64,000 bases of DNA from contig JAUXPL010000018.1 of NCBI GenBank assembly GCA_030683605.1, positions 1 to 64,000 of the forward strand, given 5' to 3'. The notes below the pieces were generated by a model. The model made no database searches, was not told where the DNA came from, and saw nothing but the letters and a program-made list of their open reading frames with translations. Position numbers and translations under genes: made by a program. Within the stretch, counting starts at the first letter, position 1, and every line of letters begins with the position of its first letter. This document shows, piece after piece, positions 29,618 through 53,939 of the stretch. The DNA is from Candidatus Altimarinota bacterium. Its GTDB lineage: Bacteria > Patescibacteriota > Gracilibacteria > BD1-5 > UBA6164.

Positions 29618-29666
29618 GAGTTATTATTTTATATATGCTAATATTTATATCTTAATTATTTATTTA

Positions 29667-29762
29667 TTATTGTAAACAATTATTGAATAATAATGTAAAT
29701 GCTGCATATGTGATGTCTGTGGTATAACATAATGGGTAAGTACTTCATCATTGTTTTTGCAT
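29667..29762 (-). CDS. Possible 31-residue peptide upstream of a radical SAM gene
   Basis: ATG 29762 to TAA 29667. MQKQGGSTYPLCYTTDITY is followed by a hydrophobic tail with one more Cys. The Gly-Gly pair is UGA-UGA. It lies about 50 bp upstream of the radical SAM gene on the same strand, which is where precursor peptides often occur. There is no homology evidence and no clear ribosome site, so it is a weak candidate. Confidence 0.25.
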
Positions 29763-29835
29763 AATAATTAGTTAATTTTAAAACAATTTAATTATACATA
29801 TTTATATAGAAAATAAGATGTTTTTATTTTTCTCA

Positions 29836-29863
29836 TTGACTATTAAATACTAATTTTCATAAT
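29836..29863 (+). promoter_or_regulatory. Promoter-like pair for the small basic ORF
   Basis: TTGACT (29836-29841) and CATAAT (29858-29863), 16-bp spacer, about 100 bp upstream of the ATG at 29963. Confidence 0.4.
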
Positions 29864-29962
29864 TTGTTTTACTTTTAATTAAATGTTTATATATTGTATA
29901 TACTTTAATTTTTACTTTCAAAATTAAAGTACCAATATTTTATTTTTTTAAACTTTATCAAT

Positions 29963-30058
29963 ATGAAAGTATTAATAACTTTTCCTGTTTGGAAAGGTTA
30001 TGTTGCATCTTTTTCACTTAGAAAGAAAAAATTTTCTAGAAAAAGAAAAACAACATAA
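29963..30058 (+). CDS. Possible small basic peptide gene or short RNA
   Basis: 31 residues: MKVLITFPVWKGYVASFSLR, then a run KKKFSRKRKTT. It has a promoter-like pair upstream and an excellent terminator starting at its stop codon, so a short transcript is well supported. Whether it is translated is not clear. The strongly basic tail recalls nucleic-acid-binding or antimicrobial-type peptides. Unknown family. Confidence 0.4.
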   Translation: MKVLITFPVWKGYVASFSLRKKKFSRKRKTT

Positions 30059-30087
30059 AAAGAGAGGTTTCACACACCTCTCTTTTT
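30057..30087 (+). terminator. Strong terminator after the small basic ORF
   Basis: AAAAAGAGAGGT / ACCTCTCTTTTT with a 7-nt loop. It overlaps the stop codon at 30056-30058. Confidence 0.85.
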
Positions 30088-30186
30088 ATATATCCAATAT
30101 TTTATTAACTTCTCAATATGGAAGTTATAAATATTATATAAAAATTATACTCAAAAGTCAAAATAATTTTATTTTTTATCAAATAT

Positions 30187-30227
30187 TACCCCCTCCTTAC
30201 TAGGGAGGGTGGTAGTGGCTGGGTTAA
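30187..30227. repeat. Short GC-rich palindromic element abutting radical SAM gene 2
   Basis: CCCCCTCCTTACTAGGGAGG followed by TGGTAGTGGCTGGGTTAA. The GGGTTAA end supplies the TAA stop of the radical SAM gene at 30224. Confidence 0.8.
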
Positions 30228-31516
30228 ATAACACTTTCCAAAACCTTAAATCCATAACTCCTCACAAAATTTATATGTATTCATTTACATTCTTTATCAT
30301 ACTTACATTTTTTACAATTCAAAGACTTTATTCTATACAAATTATTTATATATTTATATGTGTAATCTTCTAAAGTATCATACTCTTTTATATCATTATA
30401 TGTTTGATATATTCATGATCATCATAGACATTTAGGTATATTTATTAGCTTTTTGTTGTATGATTTTAGTTTATTTTTGAAGTCCTCTATTTTATCTCAG
30501 TATTTTTCATATACTTGACTTGGAAATTCTTCTCATAATATAATAAGCAATCCCCTTTTTGGTACTTCCATTGATAATGGAAGAAAATCTAGTTTTTTTG
30601 TATTTATGTTCTCTATAAAACTATGACAATAATCTTTTTGAAAACATACTGAACAAGCATCACCATAACAATTTGGTTTTATTTTTCAGTCTGATTTTAT
30701 AAATTTTTCAAATGTTGAATATGCCTCTCACATTACTTCTGATTTCATTTTTCTAGGGTCTTGAATCAAGTCTTCATATCATTCAAATGCTTCAGCAGGA
30801 AATCTATTTGTCCACATATACATTCATGGTACTTTAGATAATTCCCATGTTTTTTGTAAATACTCTATATTATCAGATATATTATAGAATAGTTTAGATT
30901 TGTATTCTTTGAATCATCTTCCAAATGGAATTATTTGCAATATATCGTATTCATATACTCAAAATTTCATAAAAAATTTAACTATATCAGGCAAAAATCT
31001 AACATTTACTTTATTCACTACTATATCTATATTCACAATAACTTCTGGAAAATATTTCTTTATATTCAATAATCATTTAATAGACCTATTAAAAGCTCAT
31101 GGAGTAGCAACTAGATAATCATGAAGTGTAGAATTGTGTCAGTGAAATGAAAAAGTAATCTCTTGCAATCCAGCATCTACTACTTTTTTACAAAAATCAA
31201 AACTATGGAACATATTTCAATTCGTAACTGTCTGTACTCTATTATATCATAGTTCCCTAGCATACTTTATGTATTCATTAAATTTTGGATTAATTGAAGC
31301 TTCACCTCATGAAATTATTACTCTATTTTCATATCATTGTTTAAATCATTTTTTTATCTCTTCTTTTACTATATCTTCTTTTACTAATACTCAGTTTTGG
31401 GCATCTGAATCTAGACAAAACAAACATTTATTATTACAAGCAGCAGTAATACGAACCCAAACTCTATTTTGTTTGGTTGTTTTTTCTTTTGATAATAAAT
31501 TTTGTTTATTTTCCAT
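30224..31516 (-). CDS. Radical SAM protein (island member 2)
   Basis: 430 residues. AACNNKCLFCLDSD (about 25-38) binds the SAM cluster, and IISGGEASINP follows with UGA-Gly in GGE. There are two more Cys groups: CYGDACSVCFQKDYC (about 268-282) and CKKCKYDKEC near the C-terminus. The latter is a SPASM-like auxiliary cluster motif shared with members 3 and 4. It is last in a five-gene minus-strand operon; its first 11 bp overlap the end of member 3. The reaction is unknown. Confidence 0.9.
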
Positions 31517-32552
31517 TTTTTAAAAAATTATTTATTTTCTCTTTTGCATAATCATCTCATACGAAACTTACCCAGTTTTTATAAAATCACAAACAATAAT
31601 CATTGTATTTGCATTTACTACACTCATCAAATTTCTGTTTTTCTTTCCATAAATACTTATATGATTCAAAATTTCAATTATTTATAGTTCAGTTTTTTTC
31701 ATCTATTCTTAGTTTTTTCATCCTTTCATGTTCTAGATTGTATTCAGGATAATCCAAAACACAAAGTGGTGGACAAACGAAATGAAAATCAGGTAATATA
31801 TTATTTTGTCTACATAGATTTACTATTTTGTCTACTTCTATTATGTCATTTTCACTATATTTTATTAATACTTCTTCTTTATTTAGCTCTGCATATCAAT
31901 TTGGTTGCACAAATCAAAAAGATATTTTATGTGTTTTATTTCATCAGAAATGATCTCTTTTTGGAATAATATTTATAAATCAAATCTCTAATAGCAATGA
32001 AATATAATCATAAATAGAATACAAATTTATCTTTGTTACTACTATATTTAGATATATTGATATTTTTTTATTTATATTGTTATCTATTATATATTTAGTC
32101 CAATCTTTGAAGTCATTAATACTATAATAACTTCCTAATTGTTTATTTATATCATCATTTCATGAATGTTGTGCTAAAAATATCTCATCTAATCAGGCTT
32201 CGATCAATTTCAATACATAATTTTTTTCTTTGAATAATTTTGTTCCATTTGTCTGTATTTCTACTACTCAAACTCATATTTCTTTTGCAAGACGAATATA
32301 TTTAAGCAGATTTTTATTCAATGTAGGTTCTCATCCTGAAAATGATAATATAAGTTTTTGTCTTTGTTCAACTGTATATTTTTTAATTAACTTCAATATT
32401 TGATAAATTATTTCTTTATCAGTTACATCTTGCTCTCAGAAATTATTTGTTTTTAAAACATTACAAAACTTACACTTCCAATTACATTTGTAAGTGACTC
32501 TAATTATTTCATTTATATATATCTTTTCTGCATTTCCCTTTTTTGAAGTCAT
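31506..32552 (-). CDS. Radical SAM protein (island member 3)
   Basis: 348 residues. TYKCNWKCKFCNVLKT (about 20-35), LSFSGGEPTLNKNLL, then the C-terminal CSKCKYNDYC, the same CxxCxxxxxC pattern as members 2 and 4. GGE is GGA-UGA. It starts 6 bp after the stop of member 4 and overlaps member 2. These three are probably recent paralogues or act in sequence on one substrate. Confidence 0.9.
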
Positions 32553-33498: not shown

Positions 33499-35637
33499 TT
33501 ATATTTCTATCTTACAATTTAAACACCCCTCTGAAATATTAGGAAACTTTTTATTCAAAAATAATTCATATTGTCTAGACAAAACTATTTCAAGTAAACT
33601 ATTTTTATTTATATTTCATAGATTATTCTCATAATCATCTAATATACAACATGGAGAAAAATCACCATTTTCATTTATCCTTATCTCTTTTTTAGACTTT
33701 ATAAAACTACAATTATTTCATTCTATTTTTTCAAAACTATTATTATTTAATATAAAATATATGAATTTATCAAATTCTCATTTATAGTAATCAGGAGAAA
33801 AAACTACTTTTATATTATTTTTATTTTCTAGTATATATTTTTTATCTTCATCGTAAAATATTTTTAATTGCTCCATAGTAGGAAATAAATATAATGTATC
33901 ATTTATAGGTGCTGTAGATATCATAGAAAAAGATATAGAATCTACTCATTTTTTCTTAAAAAAATCAAAAATATCCTTACTTTGGCTTATATTATCTCTT
34001 CTAATAGTAAAATTTATATGCACATTTATTCAATACTCTTTTAAATTAGAAATATTTTTATCAATCGTATTAAATAATCAGTTTATTCATCTGATTTTAT
34101 CATGTAATTCATATAATCAATCTACTGAAATATCCATATAATCAATAGAAACCCCTCTCAATTCTCCCCTTCCTGCTACGAGTCCCGTCTTTAGCGGGAA
34201 AGACTGGACATGTATAAGTGGAGATGAAGAAAATATATTAGTTGATTTATTTTTTACAATATTTTCGTAAAAATTATTTCATAATGTTGATCAATTCGTT
34301 GAAACTGAACTTATTAAATTCAGAGATTTACTTAAGTCTAATAGTTCAAAAAATCATTTATAAATAGTTGGTTCTCATCATGTAAAATTTACGACTTCTC
34401 ATCATAATTTATAAAAATCTAGTATAGATCTTTTAATATTTATAATATTATTATATTCCCGTTTTCTCTTTATTACTCAGCACATATCACATTTTGCATT
34501 ACATGCATTTGTTAGTCTGATTTTTATGTATTTGTATTTTTTATAATTTACGATAAACGATGCAGATAAATAAGCTCAAGAAAAATTTAAAATAATCCCT
34601 CCCCCTTCGGGTACTCCCTTTGGGAAAGGGAGATTTATAAACAATTTAGAAAGTTCATTTAAATTAATTTCATTTCAATTATATAAATAAATCACTTTTT
34701 TTGATAATATATCTAATCTAGCTTGTTGTTCTGTATCTGTTTTTCTAGGATAAATTATTGTAATTTTTTTATAATAAATATTTTCATATATATTATTGTA
34801 TCCTCACATAGTCACAACTAATTTTGCTTGTATTTTTAATTCTAGAAAATTATCAAAATAATCCTTTATTTCTAATTTGTTATTTGTTATAAGGTGTATT
34901 TTTTCTACATTTTCTTCAGTATAATTCTTTCATAAGTTCACAAATACTTTTCAATCAAAACTAGTATTATTTAACTTTTCTAAAAAATCTAGTACAAATT
35001 CAATTCCATCTTGTCATCCTCATATACTTATGAGAATATGATTTTTTTCTATTGTAGATTCTTTTAAATTATTGTTTACTATAAATCATGTATAGATTAT
35101 TTTTCTAGATATATTTTTATGAAATTTATCATTATAATTTATTATTTTTTCATCACTATGAATTAGAAATCTATCAAATAATTTTAGATTTTTTTCTTGA
35201 ATAGACTCTATATCAAATATATCTCTAACTGAACAAAAAACATTTCATTTATGATTTAATTGCTTATATTTTTTAATTAAATAATCTAACTCAAAATCTA
35301 AAAAATTTCTTCAAAAAGGATAATGTTCAATAATTAATGATTCTATATCTGTAATAGAAAATAATTTATCAAAAATAACTTTTCTAAATATTTTTATTTT
35401 TTTATTATGATTATTATCGATTAATTTATAATCAAATATTTGATAATTCGGTAAATTAATTATTTTTAAATTATTAGATTTTTTAAATAAAAAATCTTGT
35501 TTTTCTCAACTATTAATAACTATAATATTGTAATCAACTCAAAAATTCTCAATTATATTCTTTATAATTAGAGCTATTCTATTCCCATGACCAAGTCATC
35601 AGAAATTGTGATAATAAAATATTAATGTTTTTTTCAT
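33499..35637 (-). CDS. GT28-like glycosyltransferase fused to a radical SAM/SPASM protein
   Basis: 712 residues in one frame (33499-35637, no TAA/TAG). Residues 1-340 resemble MurG/GT28-type glycosyltransferases: YYHNFGGLGHGNR start, ISIGGGQDG, TMGGYNNIYE and RKTDTEQQAR. Residues about 375-712 are radical SAM: LTNACNAKCDMCGV, FTGGEPT, and a SPASM-like end (FSPCCILDD ... GCLNCKIE). The linker between them (about 335-350) is read from a palindromic element (34591), and a second element (34150) adds about 26 residues inside the radical SAM half. Either the fusion is native or an element removed a stop. It starts 8 bp after the upstream gene. Confidence 0.85.
34150..34225. repeat. In-frame palindromic element inside the GT28-radical SAM gene
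   Basis: Carries CCCCTTCCTGCTACGAG, TCCCGTCTTTAGCGGGA and GACTGGACATGTAT, the blocks of the intergenic element at 19277. In the host gene it is read, without stop, as about 26 residues (SPLIHVQSFPLKTGLVAGRG and flanks). They fall between TNIFS and IDYMDISVDG, where other radical SAM proteins of the island have no insert. Confidence 0.85.
34591..34633. repeat. In-frame palindromic element at the GT28/radical SAM junction
   Basis: CCCTCCCCCTTCGGGTACTC plus CCCTTTGGGAAAGGGAG, the block also found at 28561, 57354 and (inverted) 15050. Read in the host gene as NLPFPKGVPEGGGII, exactly between the two enzyme domains. Confidence 0.85.
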
Positions 35638-35645
35638 TTTACAAA

Positions 35646-37937
35646 TTAAATTATATATTTAAATTTACTACAATCCCCTAATTCAAAAAATTCATTTTCT
35701 CAAATTTTTATTAGTTCAAAATCTATTCATACGAATTGATTTAACTTTGTTATTAACAAATCATTATCAATATTGTTAAAAGAAAAATAATACAACTTAT
35801 ATTCATCAAACTGATAAAATAGTATTTCACAGAAATATTCACTGAAAAAATTATCTAAATCTTTAAGAGTTTTACTATTTAATAATTGATTTTTCTTTCC
35901 ATTTATAATAATATTTTTTCAATCATAATTTCATAAATCATCATTTTTGTATCTAATAAATGGAAAATATGGATTATCCAAATCTGTGACTACAAATTCA
36001 GAGGAAATCTCTTCAAAAATAATATTATCTCAATACAATTGCTTATTTCCGTCAATATCTATACTGATTGGTCACACTTCACTACATCCATAATTATCAA
36101 ATACATTACAATCAAACACTTGTTTTATATATTTTTTTAGACTTTTATTTGTATAAGTATATGTCAAACTTATAGCTTTTAATTTCGGTAAGTCTAAATC
36201 AAATTTCTGGAATCAAAGTATTAAATACAATAAATATTTAGCATCTGAATGGAGATACTTCGTATTTTTATTATCTTTAAATATATTTTGTATTTTTATA
36301 AAATACTCTTTTTCGAAATAAAAATCTGATATACTGATATATATTTTTTTTACATAATCTGGCTCAACTATATTATTTATTGCTTTTTGATTACAATTAA
36401 TTGGTGTCAGTGAGAAGTAAGAATCTTTGAATGTGAAATCAGACTCATGAGAAAAAATAGCTATTTGTTTAATATGTCTTTTGAAATCAAGTGGATAAAC
36501 AAATTTAAAAGCATTTCCAGTATTTCATGATGTTTTTCAATAGAGTACTTGTTTATTTTCGCTTAATTTAAGTATTTGCTCATAATTTTTTTTCAAAATA
36601 ACTTTATCCAAGATTGGCAATTTCTCTATAAATTCTAGAGAATTCATGTTTTCTATATCAGATTTACTTATATTATTATTTAGTAATAATTCTCTATAAA
36701 ATTCTAGATTGTCATAAAAATGAAATAATTGTTCTTTTAATTTTTTTAGTTTTATATTATTTATTAGAGAAACATCCTCAGTAAATAATTCTTTTAAATA
36801 TCTATAATAATTTATAGCTATACTCTTATCATATAGTTCATCATTTAGATATATTTCATTGAATAGAGTTTTTCTAGTATAGAAATTACTAGCACATTTA
36901 GAAGCATATCCACATTTTTCATTTGAGTTTTGTCTATATTTTTCATATTTTTCTGAATTTCTTATTTGTGAAATATCGTTTTCTAATACATTTCATACTG
37001 ATACACTAGGACTTCTTTCTACTACACAACAACCATACATATCACCAGTATAATTGATAGATGAGTGGTCTAATGGTCAAAAACAACCATATTTATCATA
37101 GAAATATTTTCCATAGATTCATTCATAGAAACTATTTATTTCCGAGTGGTATTTTTCTATATCTGATAAATTTTGCAATACTTCATCATTGTTTTTTCAT
37201 ACTAATTCACTTATAAATGGTGAAAAATCTACATTAATATTATACAGTTTAGCTTTATTGAAAATCAGTTTAATTTTCTCTCTAAAAAAATAAAAAAACT
37301 CCCTTTTTGATAGATTCAAGCTATCAATATCTTTCCTATTTTTATCATTCAAAAATACAAAACTCACTCTATCAATATCGTATTTTTTTCACAAATCTAT
37401 CATTTGGTCTAGAGTTTCAAAGTTGTATTTCATCACAACTGAGTTTATATATATCTTTAAATCAGGATTTATTTTTTTTGATTTTTTTATTATATCAATA
37501 TTTTTTGCAAATGATCCATTTACTCATCTGATATAATCATGTATCTCAGCACTTGGTCCATCTATAGACAAATACAATTCATCCAATCAGTATTTTAATA
37601 TTTTTATCAATCTTTTATCACTAAGTAGCCATGCATTAGTTTTGATTGCAACTTTTAATCACAGTTTTTTTGAGAATGCTATTAGGTCTTCCAATTTGGC
37701 ATACATAGTAGGTTCTTGCCCGTGAAACCTAATATAATTGCAATTGTAATCTTTTTTTAATTTAAGAATTATTTTGTATAAGTCATCTTCTGTAAATTTC
37801 ATCTCTATTTCCCTTTTCCAATTATCACACATCACACACTTAAAATTGCATCATCATATCAGATGCAAATCTGCCCTAAAAATCAAACTTTTTCAAGTAT
37901 TTTTGTGGTGTATGTAATTTTGTGTAATTTGGTGCAT
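35646..37937 (-). CDS. Radical SAM domain fused to a PaaK-like adenylate-forming ligase
   Basis: 763 residues. The N-terminal radical SAM has IGGCNFKCVMCDNWK (about 28-42), YIRFHGQEPTMYA in place of the usual GGEP (here HGQEP), ISIDGPS-like LYLSIDGPSAEIHD, and an auxiliary region with CGYASKCAS. The C-terminal half (about 430-763) resembles phenylacetate-CoA ligase/CoF390 synthetase: YWKTSGNTGN (about 470), YGCSEVGP (about 617), VVTDLDNPYFPFIRYKNDD. Such domains activate a carboxylate as an acyl-AMP. One protein that makes a radical and activates a carboxylate is unusual. First gene of the five-gene minus-strand operon. Confidence 0.85.
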
Positions 37938-38362: not shown

Positions 38363-41300
38363 TTACATACTCAACAACTCCTCCAACTTCTCAACCCCCT
38401 TCTCACTTCAAAATTCCTCTTTGACCTTTTCTAATCAATTAACAACAATCCTTTCAAAATCAAAAAGTCCCTTTATCTTCTCCAAATCTTCCTCTACATT
38501 TCCACTTAAAACTACTCATGTTTCTCAGTCAATTATTAATTCTCCAATCCCTCAAACAAGCGTGCTAAATACTAGATTTCAACTAAGCATATTTTCAAGT
38601 ATCATATTTGGTATTCAATCTGTATCTCAGTTAGTTGATACTTTTGAATAATTGATATATGTATTATAATTATTAATCTGCTTTAACAAATCTTTATGCT
38701 CTAAAAAGCCAAAATACTTGATTTTATTAGTTAATCATAATTCATATATTTTTTTGAAAATATCATTTTTTAATTCTCCATCTCAGATTAATCATATTTT
38801 AGCTACTAAATCCTGCTTTTCTAAAAGTGCTATCAAATCTAGTACTTCTACAATCCCCTTTTTTTCTACGAATCTTCATCATATAAGTATATTTAATTTT
38901 GAAAAATCCTTCTTAATAAAAATATACTTTGAAAAATCTAATACACTTCTAACTATTTCTATTTTTTCATTTATACCTAATTTCTCCCTTTTTCAAAGGG
39001 ATTGGCTGAAAGCCGAGGGATTAGAAAAATCAATAACACTTATTGTAGCCCCTTGCCCTTTTCAAGGGAAAGGATTTATGCCCGAAGGGAGGTATCCTGT
39101 GGACAGGTTAGGGTTATTTAAATGTTTCTCTAATTCTCATCTCATCTCCCCATCCCTCACAAATATCTTATCAATATTATCCAGAAACTTATTTTGATTT
39201 TTTAAAAAACTATACACATCATATCACCTAGCTGCTGAATATATTTTTATATCTAGTAATAATGTTTTTATCTTTGAGATAAAAAATGCATCAAATAAAA
39301 ACTCTGTATAAATTATTTTAATATCATATTTCTTTATTAAAAAAACAAAATATTTTAAATATTTAATATATAATTCTGTATCATTTATTTTTGGGTATTC
39401 TATATCTAATAATGTATCAAATTCTTTCCTATAAACTATATTGAAATTATTCGGAAATATATGATTATTATCCATTTTAAGTGTAAAAATTATAGGATTT
39501 ACTTTTTCTAGGAGGCTAAGTTCTTCATATATAAAATTCTCTGATTTAGGCAAAAATATATTCTTAAAAACTAATATATTTCTCTTATTTATTTCTTTTA
39601 TTATTTCCTCACTTATAATTTTTTTTCCATCTTGTAGCCTCCTTCCATTTTCAAGGGAAGGAATTCAAGGATGGGTTAATAATTTGTCAAAACAATTTAA
39701 ATCTTTATTCTCATCATAACTCCCCTTCTTAATAAAATCTACTCCGAAATGATTCATAAAAAAATCTATTCTATCAGATTGATTTTCAGCGTTTCTTTCT
39801 ACTGGAAATAACAAACACTTTGTGTTTGAAAAAAATACTTCATTTATAGTATTGTATCATCATCTACCGATAAATAATTCTGAGTTTATAATACTTTTTG
39901 ACAAATTGTTATCAAATTGTGAAATATTTATGAATTCTGGAATCCTTAAATTAGCTGTTAATTCATCATAATATTTTCATAAGACAAATGTGATTTCATA
40001 TTTTGAAAATAATTCTATATTTGAATTTATTAGTTTAGTTACAAATTCAAAAAAATATTTTGTATTTTCATAGTCTCAAGCATATCCAGGTGAAACTAAA
40101 ACCCCTCCGGCTTTCAGTCACATACCCTTATCAAGGGAGGAAATATTTATATCTTCATAAACATATCATGAGAAAAATATATTCTTGTAGTTATTATAAA
40201 GATCCTGTTTTTCCTGAGATAATTCTTCTATAATATGAGGAATAAATATTTTCTTAAAAATAAATAAATAAGTTTGTATAGAATTTAAATAATCTAGTTC
40301 ACTATCTCTTAAAATCAAAAAATGTGATAAATCTGGTCTATTATCTAATACTTTTTTTATAAAGTAAGTATCATGTATTATTATATCTATGTTGTTTTGT
40401 TTTATGATTTCATTTATTTTTGAAAAATTTTCAGATTCATATTCTTGAAAAGAAGTATTATTTAAACAATCCTCTATTCAATAATCTAATGATAAAACTC
40501 TAAATCATGCATCCTCTATTAAAAATGGATTTTTACTATTAGTTACAAATATTATTTCTCATATAACATCTGATTTATGAAGTTCTTGTGCTATTAACAA
40601 AGTCCTTTTTATATGTCATAATCCTATACCATTTATAGAATGAATTATTGCATTTTTTTTATTTAAAAAATATTTTTTAAAATCATTTGAAAGCTTTGAT
40701 TTTAGATTTTTTTCTAGATTATTATATCTATCATAAATATATCTTTTATAGTCAGGAGAATTGTGTTTTTGATAGTTTTTGAGCCAATTATTAGATAGTG
40801 ATTCAATATTTTTTTCTTCTAATATTTTATATGGTGGATTATACAATTTTTCTGATAAATTAAGTACTTGTAGATTTTCATTAAATACTATTTTGTGTCC
40901 TGCTTGTTGTAATCTAAATCAAAACTCAGTATCCTCATCTCACCATGAAACAAGTGATTCATCAAATCATCAAATACTTAAATAAATATCTTTTTTGATA
41001 AAAAAATTGGATGCACAGAAAAATTCCCAGATTCTATTTTTATTTTGTTTTTCATGATAGAAATTGATTCTGAAATCACTAAAATCTGGATTATTTATAT
41101 ATCAATTATCTATGAAAAAATCTATGCCTTCATCATTTAATTCTTTTTCTAAATTATTATATCATAAGTATGGTCAAATTATTACATCATCTTTATCTAT
41201 ATATTTTAGTATTTTTTCTATATGATTTTTACTAAGAATTGTTTCCTGATCTATAAAATATAGATTTTGACTTCATGCTAATTCTGCTCATTTATTTCTA

Positions 41301-41536
41301 GCTTTGCATACTCTATTTAGTCAGTTTTTAGGTCATAAATAAAAATATATTATCTCTAAATCTTTGAATTTATTTATTGTTTCTTTATATATATTTTGAT
41401 AATTTTGTCTTGATCAATCATCAATAAAAACAACTATTATCTTTATAGCTTTGTTTTGCTGTTTTTTTATTGATAATAATTGTTTTTCAATATAATCAGA
41501 ATTATATAGTGGGATTATCAAATTTATGATTATCAT
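38363..41536 (-). CDS. Three-domain glycosyltransferase (GT2 + GT28-like + GT4)
   Basis: 1057 residues in one frame. Residues 1-250 are GT2: LIIPLYNSDYIEKQLLS, FIDDGS, IDQET, GGFDESLVSWGDEDTEF. Residues about 298-620 are GT28/MurG-like: HSINGIGLGHIKRT, VLVSPGYAGDYENT, IGRGGYNTINEV. Residues about 640-1057 are GT4: GGRFVEKKGI, LIGDGELKN, GIPNMILENMLSG. Palindromic elements are read in frame at about residues 465-478, 620-634 and 807-852. The protein would transfer several sugars in a row, for example in a surface glycan. Its start is only 15 bp from the divergent asparagine-synthetase-like gene. Confidence 0.88.
38981..39117. repeat. In-frame composite palindromic element in the GT4 domain
   Basis: Two palindromes, TTTCTCCCTTTTTCAAAGGG and CCCTTTTCAAGGGAAAGG, plus GAGGTATCCTGTGGACAGG, shared with 23019. 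I traced every codon from 38978 to 39124. It encodes about 46 residues (HLNNPNLSTGYLPSGINPFP onward) with no TAA/TAG and two UGA read as Gly. Confidence 0.9.
39633..39678. repeat. In-frame palindromic element (TAACCC type) between GT28 and GT4 domains
   Basis: The minus-strand sequence TAACCCATCCTTGAATTCC with its CCTTCCCT/GGAAGGAGGCTACA arms is nearly identical to the intergenic copy at 23019. Read as LTHPGIPSLENGRRLQ; one Gly is UGA. Confidence 0.9.
40101..40142. repeat. In-frame palindromic element in the GT28-like domain
   Basis: CCCTCCGGCTTTCAGTCACA and CCCTTATCAAGGGAGG. Read on the minus strand as SSLDKGMGLKAGG just before VLVSPGYAG; one Gly is UGA. Confidence 0.8.
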
Positions 41537-45487: not shown

Positions 45488-45610
45488 TTAACAGCCCTCA
45501 CCTAACCTCTCCCAAAGGGAGAGGAAATTAAGGATAATTGTTTTTTTACATATTGTCCCCTCTCCCTTTGGAGAGGGCTAGGGTGAGGGCATTCATTAAT
45601 AAGGAGGGGG
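45488..45610. repeat. Composite GC-rich palindromic element between radical SAM genes
   Basis: The outer arms GCCCTCACCTAACC and GGCTAGGGTGAGGGC pair imperfectly. Inside are CTCTCCCAAAGGGAGAGG and CTCTCCCTTTGGAGAGGG. It ends AAGGAGGGGG, about 26 nt before the next ATG. It interrupts an otherwise tight operon. Confidence 0.85.
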
Positions 45611-45635: not shown

Positions 45636-46622
45636 ATGACTCATTATATAAAAAGTATAAATTGGATATTTACATATAAATGTAATCTGAAATGCAATCA
45701 TTGCGACATCTGGAGTTATGATTATAAATCAGAACTAAGTATAGAAAAAATAAAAGAAATCGTAAATTCAAAAATCATTCAAAATAGTTATAAATATTAT
45801 TGAGAATTTTTTGATATTGGTATAAGTGGATGAGAACCATTATTAATAGAAAATTTGGAAGAAAAAATGCTTGTAATAGATGAGTATTTACCTAACTCTA
45901 TACATTCAATAAGTACAAACTGAATATTGACTAATAAGTTGATGAAATTGCTTATATTTTGGAAGAAAAAATGAAAAAGTTTTAAAAAGATAAATATTTC
46001 AGTCGATTGAAAACAAATAAACCATGATAGACAAAGATGATCCCTATGAAGTTTTATAAAAGTTTTAGAAACTATTTGAAAAATAAAAAAAGTATTTCCT
46101 AAACAGATTATAGAATTGAAAATGACTATAACAAAAAATAATTATAAAGATATAATATTTTTGTGTAGATTAGCAAATAAACTATGAGTAAATTTTTCAT
46201 TTAAACCTGTGGAAAATATGACTAATTATACTAATCAAAAAAATGATTATAATGTGCATTTTACTGAAGATGAAATAATTGAAATCGAAAATCAAGTATA
46301 TGACAATCCATATATAATCGAGCAATGAAATTATATAAATAAAAATTTTTTCTATAAAATACCTGATTACTTGAGAAACTGATTATGAGAAGAAAAAAAG
46401 AATTGTAGTATAGCAAAAGATTCTATTACTATTATGCCTGATGCTAATGTTTTTTCTTGTATACTTATGAATAAAATCTGAGATCTAATAGAAAATAATT
46501 TAGATGAAATATGGAATTGAAAAAATATTAAATTACAGAGAAAAGATATTGAAAATGGAGATTGTCCAGAATGTATGCTGATGTGTGGAGCATTTAAATC
46601 AAAAGAAATATATGACAGATAA
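45636..46622 (+). CDS. Radical SAM/SPASM protein (island member 9)
   Basis: 328 residues. TYKCNLKCNHCDIWSYD (about 13-29), ISGGEPLLIEN, ISTNGIL, ISVDGKQINHD, and a SPASM end with VFSCILMNKIGDL, IWNGKN and CPECMLMC. GGE is GGA-UGA. Its stop overlaps the start of member 10 (ATGACAGATAA). Confidence 0.9.
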
Positions 46623-47673
46623 ATATATCATAAACTGGGAATTATCACTTGCCTGCAATTTAGATTGCTCTTTTTGTAGTCAAAAAGAAAGAAGGAATCT
46701 AAATAATAAAATACCTAGTCTAGAAAATATTTATCAAATAATTGATAATTTACCTAATAATACTCACATATCATTTCTATGATGAGAAACTCTAATGTTA
46801 CCAAATATAATAGATATATTTAAGAAACTTGAAGAAAGATGAATCTCATATGAAATAACTACAAATGGAATACTTCTAGATAAATTTTTTGGTGTTGTTA
46901 TGAATAACCCAACCTTAAATTCCCTCCCTAAAATTAGGGAGGGAGGCTACAATAAAATTGAACAATTAAAACATTTAACTCAAATAAATATTTCTATAGA
47001 TTGATATGGTGATTTTCATGATATATCTAGATGAAAAAAATGATTATTTAATAAATTAAAAAAAGTTATTCCAGAATTAATAAATATCAAAAATATTACA
47101 ATATCCACTGTTATCAGTCCGAATCTAACTAATGAAAATATAGTCAAATTGCATCTATGGTTAAATAGTATATGAATAAAAGAACACAAATTGATTTATA
47201 TGATGAATTTTTCCAAAATAGATGTAGAAAATTCAAAAAATAAAATAAAGGAATTAAAAATATGATTACCTGGTTCAGAAAAGCTAGATAATAATGTATT
47301 GAAAAATAATTTCTTAGAAAAATTATCACTACTAAAAAATCTATGAAATAATAACCCCTCCTTGTATTCCTTCCCTAAAATTAGGGAAGGAGGCTACAAA
47401 AAAATTCAAATAACAATAGAACCTATTGCCTTATTTAAAAAATGAAAGATTTCATGTAAACAATTAGATAAACAATTGAGAATAGATGAAAATGGAAAAC
47501 TTTCTATATGTGAATTTATCACAAATAATTTCGATGATATTTCAAAAATAAAACTAAATGATGCTATAAAAAATAATGATTTTATTGAATTTAAAAAAGC
47601 TATTAAATCAAATTTCCCACTAGATATATGCAAAACTTGTTGTAAATTATATAATGAAAACTCCTCTAACTAA
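46612..47673 (+). CDS. Radical SAM/SPASM protein with two in-frame palindromic inserts (island member 10)
   Basis: 353 residues. The ATG at 46612 overlaps the previous stop and is preferred to an upstream GTG. ELSLACNLDCSFCSQKE (about 9-25), FLGGETLMLPN, ISIDGYGDFHD; SPASM end LSICEFITN ... DICKTCCKLYN. Residues about 98-115 (NNPTLNSLPKIREGGYNKI) and 247-264 (NNPSLYSFPKIREGGYKKI) are nearly identical and are the translation of two copies of one palindromic element. Last gene of the plus-strand operon. Confidence 0.9.
46904..46956. repeat. In-frame palindromic element, copy 1 in radical SAM member 10
   Basis: TAACCCAACCTTAAATTCC, CCCTCCCTAAAATTAGGGAG, GGAGGCTACAATAAAAT. Read as NNPTLNSLPKIREGGYNKI. 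The same DNA as 47351 with a few substitutions. Confidence 0.92.
47351..47401. repeat. In-frame palindromic element, copy 2 in radical SAM member 10
   Basis: TAACCCCTCCTTGTATTCC, TTCCCTAAAATTAGGGAAGG, AGGCTACAAAAAAAT. Read as NNPSLYSFPKIREGGYKKI, the same frame and orientation as copy 1. Confidence 0.92.
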
Positions 47674-51973: not shown

Positions 51974-51991
51974 ATTTCTCTTTTATTTGTT
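51951..51991. terminator. Bidirectional terminator between radical SAM 11 and the HGS-repeat gene
   Basis: A 19-bp perfect stem (AACAAATAAAAGAGAAATC and its complement) with a 3-nt loop. It overlaps the end of the plus-strand radical SAM gene and touches the stop of the minus-strand precursor gene. Confidence 0.9.
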
Positions 51992-52401
51992 TAATAACTT
52001 CAATGAGAACCATGACTTCAATGTGAACCATGACTTCAATGTGAACCATGACTACCATGAGCTGAAGCACTACAATGTCAATTATTTATTGCAGGAGTTG
52101 CACTATAATGCCCATTAACAATTCAACTTGCATGTTGTGCTGACCAACCTGAAGTAGATGTATTTATAGTTAATCACGCAAATGGTGTAGTTACATTTCA
52201 ATGTCAAACAGGGCCAGGTCATATTGGAGTTAAAGGGTAGTTCATATGACCTCAAGCATATCATTCTTCTACTCAAGTAAGTAGTAATGCTCATGCACTT
52301 AATCACATAGCATCTTTTTTAGTTATTTTTCATGATTCATCAGTCAAAAAATTCTTTATTTTCTTTTTTAACTTTGGGAAAAATTTTTTATTATTTGTCA
52401 T
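51991..52401 (-). CDS. hxsA: His-Xaa-Ser repeat precursor (HxsA-like)
   Basis: 136 residues. The leader (about 1-45) is basic then hydrophobic: KKIKNFLTDESGKITKKDAM, LSAGALLLTGVEEGYAGG. The middle has Gly/Thr/Pro/Ser-rich sequence, with one Cys in GHCSAS. The C-terminus (115-135) is seven exact His-Gly-Ser repeats, then Tyr. His-Xaa-Ser repeat proteins are the proposed substrates of the Hxs radical SAM system. An HxsB-like maturase gene starts the upstream side 59 bp away, and HxsD-like genes precede it. About 20 of the Gly are UGA, so the peptide is invisible under the standard code. Confidence 0.8.
51997..52059. repeat. Seven tandem 9-bp His-Gly-Ser codon repeats
   Basis: Seven 9-bp units. 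In order from the N-terminus the Gly codons are GGT, GGT, UGA, GGT, UGA, GGT, UGA, so the last six fall into 18-bp higher-order units. This suggests unequal crossing-over of an 18-bp unit. Confidence 0.92.
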
Positions 52402-52460: not shown

Positions 52461-53939
52461 TTAAATTATATTACATAATATTGGTTCTGTTTTCATACCT
52501 ACCCATTTTTGAAATAATGCCTTATTTTCTTCTTTTCTTAAATTATCAAAAAGGAAATCAAGTACTGCATAATCAAGTATTTTTTTATGATCCTTAGAAT
52601 AATTTGGTATTATATTTCATGTAGTTTTGTATGAATGTATAGGACAAACTCAAATATATGGTTTATAAACACTATCATTGTATCATGGTAATCAATCCAA
52701 TGTAGAGGCTTGAACCATAACTTTTGTTGTTTCTGACTCTATCATATTTTTATATGTTTCTGCTCAAGAATCTGAAACAGTAGTCATCAAAAAGTTTTCA
52801 TCTCACATTCTTCATAGCATTCTTCATTCATCACAGCTATATATTTTCCCATCGTAATTATATGCTACTTGTCAAATACAAGCTCAACAAGGACTTCTCT
52901 CATCTAAATAATTAGGATCAGTATCTGTAAGTATTTTTGATAAATATATCATACTTAATGATTCTCTAAAATTTACTCCAGATTTATTTAATTCCAATAT
53001 ATAAGCCATAGATTTATAATAAAATTCTATGAATTCTTCAGGTTCATATCACAATTTTTCTAATTCTGCAGCAGCAAATCAATATGGATTCAATGGTCTT
53101 AAAAAAATAGAATCAAGTCATAATTTTATATATGTATCTATTATTTCCTTATATCTACTTAATGATTTTTTGGTTACAGTTAATAGTGCTCATATTTTAT
53201 TATTTATTCATCTTTTAGAATATTCTTCATTTATTCTTTTTATCCAATATGTAACTTGTTCATAACTATTCCCTTCTTTGAATGTTCTATTATAATTATG
53301 AGTTTCTTCATCTCAATCTAAAGATGTAGATATTCATACATTATTCTCTATTAGATAATTCATCTTTTCTTCGTCCATCAATGTTAGATTTGTAACTAAT
53401 GCAAAAGTAACATTTTTTTTCAAATGATAAGATTTAATAGATGCATATTCAATAATATATTTTACTATATCCCAATTAACTAGTGATTCTCATCATTGAA
53501 ATTCTATAGTTAGATTTTGACTAGAAGTGTAAAATATTGCATCTACTACTTTTTTTGCTGTATCCTCTGTCATATCCATATTTTTTGCTGTCATTGGAGC
53601 TACAGCTGCATGACAATATTGACATTTATGGTTACATCTAAGAGTTGTTACAATAATATGCAATGTTGGTCAAAATGCCAAAAAAGCATTTTTTTGTGCA
53701 AATGATTTAGCCATATCTAGCTCATAATCATTATTTTTTATAAATTTTTTACTTAATAATTCATCATATTTTTCTCACGAATTTAATTTACCTGAAATAA
53801 AATCTCAAAAATCATTTTTATCTATAAAACAATATTTTCAAATATCGTTAGTTATTAAATAAGAATCTAAATCAAATTTTTTAAATCTAAAAAATCACAG
53901 ATTATTATTCAATTTTTTAATTTTTCCAATTTCTAACAT
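52461..53939 (-). CDS. hxsB: HxsB-like radical SAM maturase
   Basis: 492 residues. The N-terminus has the HxsB-type layout (FFRFKKFDLDSYLITNDIG, then DFGDFISGKL), followed by LHIIVTTLRCNHKCQYCH (Cx3Cx2C at about 96-103), NMDMTEDTAKKVVDAIF, IEFQGGESLVNWD and TSLDGD. The SPASM-like C-terminus has SPCGACIG (about 350), YSCDEGRML and GVCPIHSY. The strings IEFQGGE and TLRCNHKC.YCH are what I know of HxsB (TIGR03978). It would modify the His-Gly-Ser repeat protein. 3 bp separate it from the upstream small gene. Confidence 0.82.

Follow-up and report, generated by a model that had tools for sequence, protein, structure and literature searches.

A radical SAM/SPASM enzyme joined to a PaaK-like ligase in a single predicted protein of Gracilibacteria

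Known relatives of the two halves

Radical SAM enzymes and acyl-adenylate-forming enzymes are among the most versatile tools of natural-product and surface-glycan chemistry. The solved radical SAM core closest to the one described here belongs to BlsE, the cytosylglucuronate decarboxylase, which is, going by its name, a sugar-nucleotide enzyme, comes without a ligase domain and carries GGEP where the present protein has GQEP. For the ligase, the best matches outside the protein itself are PaaK relatives from Methanohalobium, Patescibacteria and phage contigs, with glycosyltransferases or sugar dehydrogenases nearby, which we call CapK-type, taking CapK to be the name for the PaaK relatives of polysaccharide gene clusters; they stand alone, with no adjoining radical SAM gene in the loci searched, whereas here the radical SAM domain lies in the same chain. 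The ligases of the DVU_1553 family (NF045666) are likewise separate proteins of 331 model positions, in contrast to a domain that forms part of a longer chain. PaaK1 (2y27), ClxA (9s3l) and NatL2 (6tm4) have the fold and the ATP-site residues in common with our ligase, which differs from them in being joined to a radical SAM/SPASM enzyme and in scoring below the cut-offs for PaaK, FlxY and DVU_1553-type ligases. Excerpts of the reports on NatL2 (PMC7204872) and ClxA (PMC12519233) indicate that the PaaK family can form esters or amides, not only CoA thioesters.

Both domains are known; what appears to be new is that a single chain unites a PaaK-like ligase with a radical SAM/SPASM enzyme, outside any named equivalog seen. 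The titles and abstract openings of the open-licence PMC literature yielded no description of a radical SAM domain fused to a PaaK or adenylation domain, and those concerned with Gracilibacteria radical SAM enzymes, CapK and TrsS/DVU_1553 held nothing on such a protein; an excerpt of the one paper found to name both radical SAM and phenylacetate-CoA ligase (PMC2988823) treats them as separate proteins.

The gene, its frame and its genetic code

The gene lies in the window, that is, the whole stretch of 64,000 nucleotides that was analysed.

35646..37937, minus strand: radical SAM-PaaK fusion gene, 763 aa under genetic code table 25, one frame with 20 TGA codons read as Gly

An earlier note had placed one open reading frame at these coordinates, correctly, although the strand is minus and table 25 is required: under table 11 the 763-aa frame contains 20 in-frame stops, all of them TGA. 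The TGA codons fall at Gly sites common to the homologues, and TGA is read through within most genes of the window. The four close homologues on named contigs, found in a scan with two short peptide patterns that catches close relatives only, all belong to Gracilibacteria or Patescibacteria assemblies, which agrees with the TGA=Gly code. A chance open frame is excluded by the Pfam, NCBIfam and PDB matches and by the preservation of the full-length frame down to 45-46% identity. Could the joined frame nevertheless be an artefact, either an assembly chimera or a misread code? The source genomes are multi-contig assemblies, and the frame depends on TGA being read as Gly. We reject this explanation, together with that of a chance frame, as wildly improbable because the same joined frame recurs in five separate assemblies, at 46-92% identity to the window protein, and because the shared Gly sites and the reading of TGA inside most window genes argue against a misread code.

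The radical SAM half

37392..37859, minus strand: radical SAM core, residues 27-182 (PF04055, E 2.2e-25; best PDB match BlsE, 7vob, E 3.4e-15)
37827..37850, minus strand: cluster motif CNFKCVMC in the sequence, residues 30-37, invariant in 5/5 homologues
37710..37724, minus strand: HGQEP, a variant of GGEP, residues 72-76, with H72, G73, Q74 and E75 invariant in 5/5
36894..37085, minus strand: SPASM domain, residues 285-348 (PF13186, E 1.6e-10, 41.5 bits, cut-off 21.5)

Judged from its motifs and profile matches, the segment of residues 1-370 is a predicted radical SAM/SPASM enzyme. The score of 90.2 bits with PF04055, against a curated cut-off of 29.5, places it in the radical SAM superfamily; the cysteines of the CX3CX2C motif (C30, C34, C37) are invariant in all five homologues, and so are those of the SPASM region (C285, C303, C304, C342, C348), as befits an auxiliary-cluster domain. 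Among the best 25 of 49 families, every named NCBIfam radical SAM family stays below its cut-off, TIGR04466 (BlsE cytosylglucuronate decarboxylase) scoring 68.3 bits against an equivalog cut-off of 400, and identity with a named equivalog was rejected on these grounds. The match to BlsE spans the core only (residues 24-181, E 3.4e-15), so that it does not fix the substrate of the fusion.

The GGEP motif varies across the radical SAM superfamily. The earlier note had it altered to HGQEP in this protein, and the letters are indeed there, but the change is smaller than that wording implies: YIRFTGGEP of BlsE is aligned with YIRFHGQEP of the fusion, so a single Gly is replaced by Gln and the His precedes the motif. 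The Glu is kept and the second Gly is Gln in all five homologues, P76 being Ala in one of them (G047). Among the Cx3Cx2C frames listed for the window and the fetched loci, GQE is confined to the fusion proteins. The Gln could change SAM binding; we do not argue that HGQEP marks a new SAM-binding mode, given that one Gly has become Gln and the Glu is kept.

The ligase half

The features of this half are given with reference to two alignments, A6 (11 rows: five fusions and six standalone relatives) and A10 (28 rows).

35649..36827, minus strand: predicted PaaK/CapK-type acyl-adenylate ligase half, residues 371-763 (NF045666, AlphaFold2 model, PaaK1 fold match)
36513..36530, minus strand: P-loop motif SGNTGN, residues 470-475, aligned with TSGSTG of CapK relatives
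36069..36092, minus strand: YGCSEVGP, residues 616-623, including E620; Y, G and E invariant in A6
35937..35954, minus strand: RYKNDD, residues 662-667, including D667; R, Y and D invariant in A10
35664..35666, minus strand: K758, candidate C-terminal catalytic lysine, invariant in A6 and at least 90% conserved in A10, located where confidence in the model is low

Profiles, predicted fold and ATP-site residues together identify residues 371-763 as a putative PaaK/CapK-type acyl-adenylate ligase. The best NCBIfam profile is NF045666 (DVU_1553-type AMP-dependent CoA ligase), which is matched at E 6.4e-15 and with 55 bits against a cut-off of 300, and which all five members match. FlxY, PaaK and related models are matched as well; five of these models, NF045666 among them, are matched in all five members, and every match is under cut-off; with 27.6 bits against the equivalog cut-off of 646 for TIGR02155 (PaaK proper), the protein is not filed as PaaK, and the PaaK equivalog identity was rejected since the NCBIfam cut-offs are missed in 6/6 rows. 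Among PDB chains of the PaaK type, 9s3l (E 2.8e-9) and 4r1l (E 6.8e-7) match this half. Pfam, applied to the C-terminal half alone, returns no family for the window member, and AMP-binding appears in three of the five members at a best E of 0.16, short of significance.

The AlphaFold2 model of this half, built from 28 sequences, has a pLDDT of 86.3 and a pTM of 0.85, but is poor in two loops, the P-loop among them, and over the final 12 residues. The earlier note had staked its ligase assignment on whether residues 430-763 match an adenylating enzyme fold, and the assignment survived: the best Foldseek match is PaaK1 (2y27, E 1.2e-18), and VIA-align superimposes 362 of 393 residues on it (Z 30.0, rmsd 3.2, 17% identity), with the reservation that the alignment behind the model included PaaK/CapK-type rows, which makes the fold match partly dependent on the sequence match. 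Next among the PDB fold matches come BT_0428, ClxA and NatL2/AjiA1-type ligases, and identity to PaaK-family chains is 13-20% (VIA-align). Both domain calls of that note hold, and the motifs that it had placed in one frame are present (C30-x3-C34-x2-C37, S470-GNTGN, Y616-GCSEVGP); its ligase call stands as well, with a start nearer residues 371-390 than the residue 430 that it gave.

Residues invariant in A6 are P441, K445, G471, G474, I604, Y616, G617, E620, T651, P659, R662, Y663, D667 and K758, so the P-loop, the YGxxE and RYxxxD motifs and the C-terminal Lys of PaaK-like ANL ligases are represented in all 11 sequences. K758 sits in CSKFK / ECGKYK, facing (S/T)GK of the relatives. In an excerpt of PMC7204872, the C-terminal Lys422 of PaaK is described as contacting the alpha-phosphate. 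The fold match runs along PaaK1 residues 5-427, the end of the model lying opposite the last of these; because of this, K758, in its low-confidence region, would fall near Lys422 of PaaK1 if there is no gap between. Could the ligase half instead be catalytically dead and now help the radical SAM enzyme by binding or recognition? The CapK relatives have a longer C-terminal region, the hinge GR motif reads GK, and the AMP-binding match is not significant; against inactivation, there is no variation at the ATP-site residues or at the C-terminal Lys, and the fold is matched over the stretch of PaaK1 just given. We consider loss of activity quite unlikely.

Distribution and selection

The full-length fusion occurs in 5/99 relatives searched, own genome included, the identities being 89% in G004, 88% in G002, 55% in G012 and 45% in G047. 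Some match is found in 38 of the 99, the remaining 33 matching the radical SAM part only. When the ligase half was searched alone, the same five genomes were recovered out of the 77 of the order, so that the fusion is intact in every genome carrying this half, as it is in the four named contigs. In the phylum sample the ligase half has a match in 10 of 379 genomes; besides the own genome, these are nine whose PaaK-like frames stand alone and measure 227-484 aa. The rarity of the fusion refers to the order (77 genomes), to this sample (379 genomes) and to close homologues.

Both halves are under purifying selection. Within the genus, dN/dS in three pairs is 0.07-0.13 for the radical SAM half and 0.10-0.17 for the ligase half (Nei-Gojobori estimates at 23% GC, with rough dS values), and both halves are therefore kept by selection.

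The search for separate halves showed that standalone relatives of the ligase half exist and that none of those found has a radical SAM gene beside it or fused to it. The profile of the radical SAM half has no match in the ORFs of the nine phylum loci and the Methanohalobium stretch, nor among the neighbours of 36 distinct CapK-type ORFs on phage contigs. The best plasmid match to the ligase half, from Methanohalobium, lies between GT2 and GT4 genes; in a patescibacterial locus (L053) the homologue of the ligase half continues on from a GT2 domain, and a UDP-sugar dehydrogenase is nearby in all three phage loci tested. A viral scan with the C-terminal half gave no relatives among 244 pattern matches, one with the full fusion gave radical SAM matches only, at 26-30% identity, and in the phage collection the C-terminal half had no match. 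CapK-type PaaK ligases are carried by viral contigs (L065-L133), one of which (L089, 4001-6490) has an ORF of about twice the usual length.

Partner gene and neighbours

38363..41536, minus strand: glycosyltransferase fusion, GT2 / GT28-like / GT4 (Pfam), 1057 aa; homologue upstream of the fusion in G002, G004, G012 and G047
33499..35637, minus strand: partner gene, GT28/PseG-like domain fused to radical SAM/SPASM (PF04101, PF04055, PF13186), 712 aa
32559..33497, minus strand: radical SAM protein, 312 aa; homologues follow the partner gene in G002, G004 and G012
31506..32552, minus strand: radical SAM protein, 348 aa
30224..31516, minus strand: radical SAM protein, 430 aa, HxsC4-like (133.5 bits, cut-off 500)

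The partner gene starts eight bases downstream of the radical SAM-PaaK gene and is present in exactly the same five of 77 genomes. Identical sets would arise by chance with a probability of 5e-8 for independent genomes and of 1.7e-4 at the genus level (3 of 34); the relatedness of the genomes, which represent three genera only, limits the weight of this co-inheritance. The order glycosyltransferase, radical SAM-ligase, GT28-radical SAM is found in the own genome and G047, and in G002 and G004 with two more radical SAM genes inserted; in G012, where the contig with the fusion ends behind it, the partner gene is on another contig. A 101-aa ORF that has no Pfam match lies between the glycosyltransferase fusion and the radical SAM-PaaK gene. 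In G012 the triple glycosyltransferase fusion is represented by two ORFs.

The radical SAM island

52461..53939, minus strand: HxsB, anchor of the island (TIGR03978, 499 bits, cut-off 370)
51991..52401, minus strand: His-Xaa-Ser repeat peptide, HxsA4-like (NF038313, 44.3 bits, cut-off 55)

All these genes belong to an island at 28667-54704 (about 25 kb) that contains 12 of the 21 PF04055 matches of the genome and also carries HxsD, HxsD-like, two Asn-synthase-like genes and a DegT-type sugar aminotransferase. A carbamoyltransferase-like gene is present in G002, G004 and G012, identified by Pfam in G004 and by its similar start and place in the others. HxsB occurs in 48 of the 77 genomes of the order, including all five with the fusion; the fusion, found in 5/77, is accordingly no regular companion of HxsB, and its assignment as a core Hxs component was rejected on this comparison.

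Proposed function and its alternatives

The union of the two enzymes in a single chain predicts a pathway step that needs both activities. Given the sugar-transfer and radical-enzyme neighbours, the protein probably decorates a surface sugar or peptide. From the computed domains, residues, selection, co-inheritance and context we infer the activity of each half, a shared product, its substrate class and the order of steps, in the form of a tentative hypothesis to which we give slightly less than even confidence, namely that the protein is bifunctional and acts as a tailoring enzyme in the making of a glycoconjugate (or glycopeptide), combining carboxylate activation with radical chemistry. The C-terminal PaaK/CapK-type half would convert ATP and a carboxylic acid to an acyl-adenylate, from which the acyl group would be passed on to an amine or hydroxyl of a sugar or peptide, or to CoA. 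The N-terminal radical SAM/SPASM half would cleave SAM and alter the same product by radical chemistry, for example through dehydrogenation, decarboxylation or epimerisation; this step might take place on the acid prior to activation or on the acceptor. The radical SAM-PaaK fusion, the neighbouring glycosyltransferases and the GT28/PseG-like-radical SAM fusion would work together as one module. An acyl-decorated, radically modified sugar or glycopeptide is suggested because the fused radical SAM enzyme is closest to a sugar-nucleotide enzyme and has glycosyltransferase neighbours, and the glycan reading draws further on the facts that CapK-type relatives adjoin glycosyltransferases or UDP-sugar dehydrogenases and that NatL2 and ClxA acylate an amine or hydroxyl.

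The His-Xaa-Ser peptide system of the island counts against the glycan reading and makes a peptide target possible. In that case a ribosomal peptide, whether the island's own His-Xaa-Ser protein or a precursor that escaped notice, would be modified by the radical SAM half, and the ligase would acylate this peptide or activate its carboxylate. The island's HxsA4-like, HxsB, HxsD and HxsD-like genes, together with HxsB in every fusion genome, speak for such a role, but the distribution of HxsB given above shows that Hxs does not need the fusion, the nearest neighbours are glycosyltransferase genes whereas the peptide gene is ~14 kb off, and within the 763 aa Pfam reports no peptide-binding domain of its own, so that we regard peptide tailoring as rather unlikely. 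A comparably low probability attaches to the view that the halves are linked for co-expression only, acting on different substrates or at different steps, with no channelling. The junction, near residues 365-390, is poorly conserved after residue 387, and the full-length AlphaFold2 model (5 sequences, pLDDT 54.5) is too weak to judge the interface between the halves, both of which would fit mere linkage; on the other side, the fusion is never split in the five genomes with this ligase family or in the four named contigs. A bolder proposal is that the chain holds the acyl-adenylate or the transferred acyl group while the SAM-derived radical acts on that group or on the acceptor, and that this step contributes to a heavily modified glycoconjugate made in Gracilibacteria by the HxsB-anchored island with its dozen or so radical SAM enzymes. 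We know of no characterised precedent for such radical acyl-transferase or ligase chemistry, and we consider this proposal improbable.

The small conserved module of glycosyltransferase fusion, radical SAM-ligase and GT28/PseG-like-radical SAM fusion, set in an island with more than half of the radical SAM matches of a reduced genome, suggests investment in an elaborate surface or secreted product by Gracilibacteria that have a tiny genome and have lost much else. The radical SAM-PaaK fusion is a concrete protein for assay.

Further observations on the island

Similar arrays of radical SAM genes next to HxsB are seen in hand-picked relatives, for example on contigs C18 of G022, C82 of G064, C8 of G010 and C13 of G059. 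Short GC-rich palindromes of the type TTCCCTCCC-TAAAATTA-GGGAGGGAGG occur twice in frame at 46900-47450, inside the radical SAM gene at 46504-47673, and an inverted repeat, CCTCTCCC, lies between genes at 45501-45582; these elements are REP-like, and coding sequence tolerates them. The 712-aa partner gene may hold an insert of the palindrome type, its relatives being without ~40 residues at that place. In G002 (L045, 11891-16638) the island includes, near a reverse transcriptase, a protein that combines a Fib_succ_major domain with a pilin-type N-terminus, a set that could possibly constitute a diversity-generating retroelement and is absent from the window. In G004 a pilin-like gene occupies the same place, the counterpart of the gap at 29618-30223 in the window.
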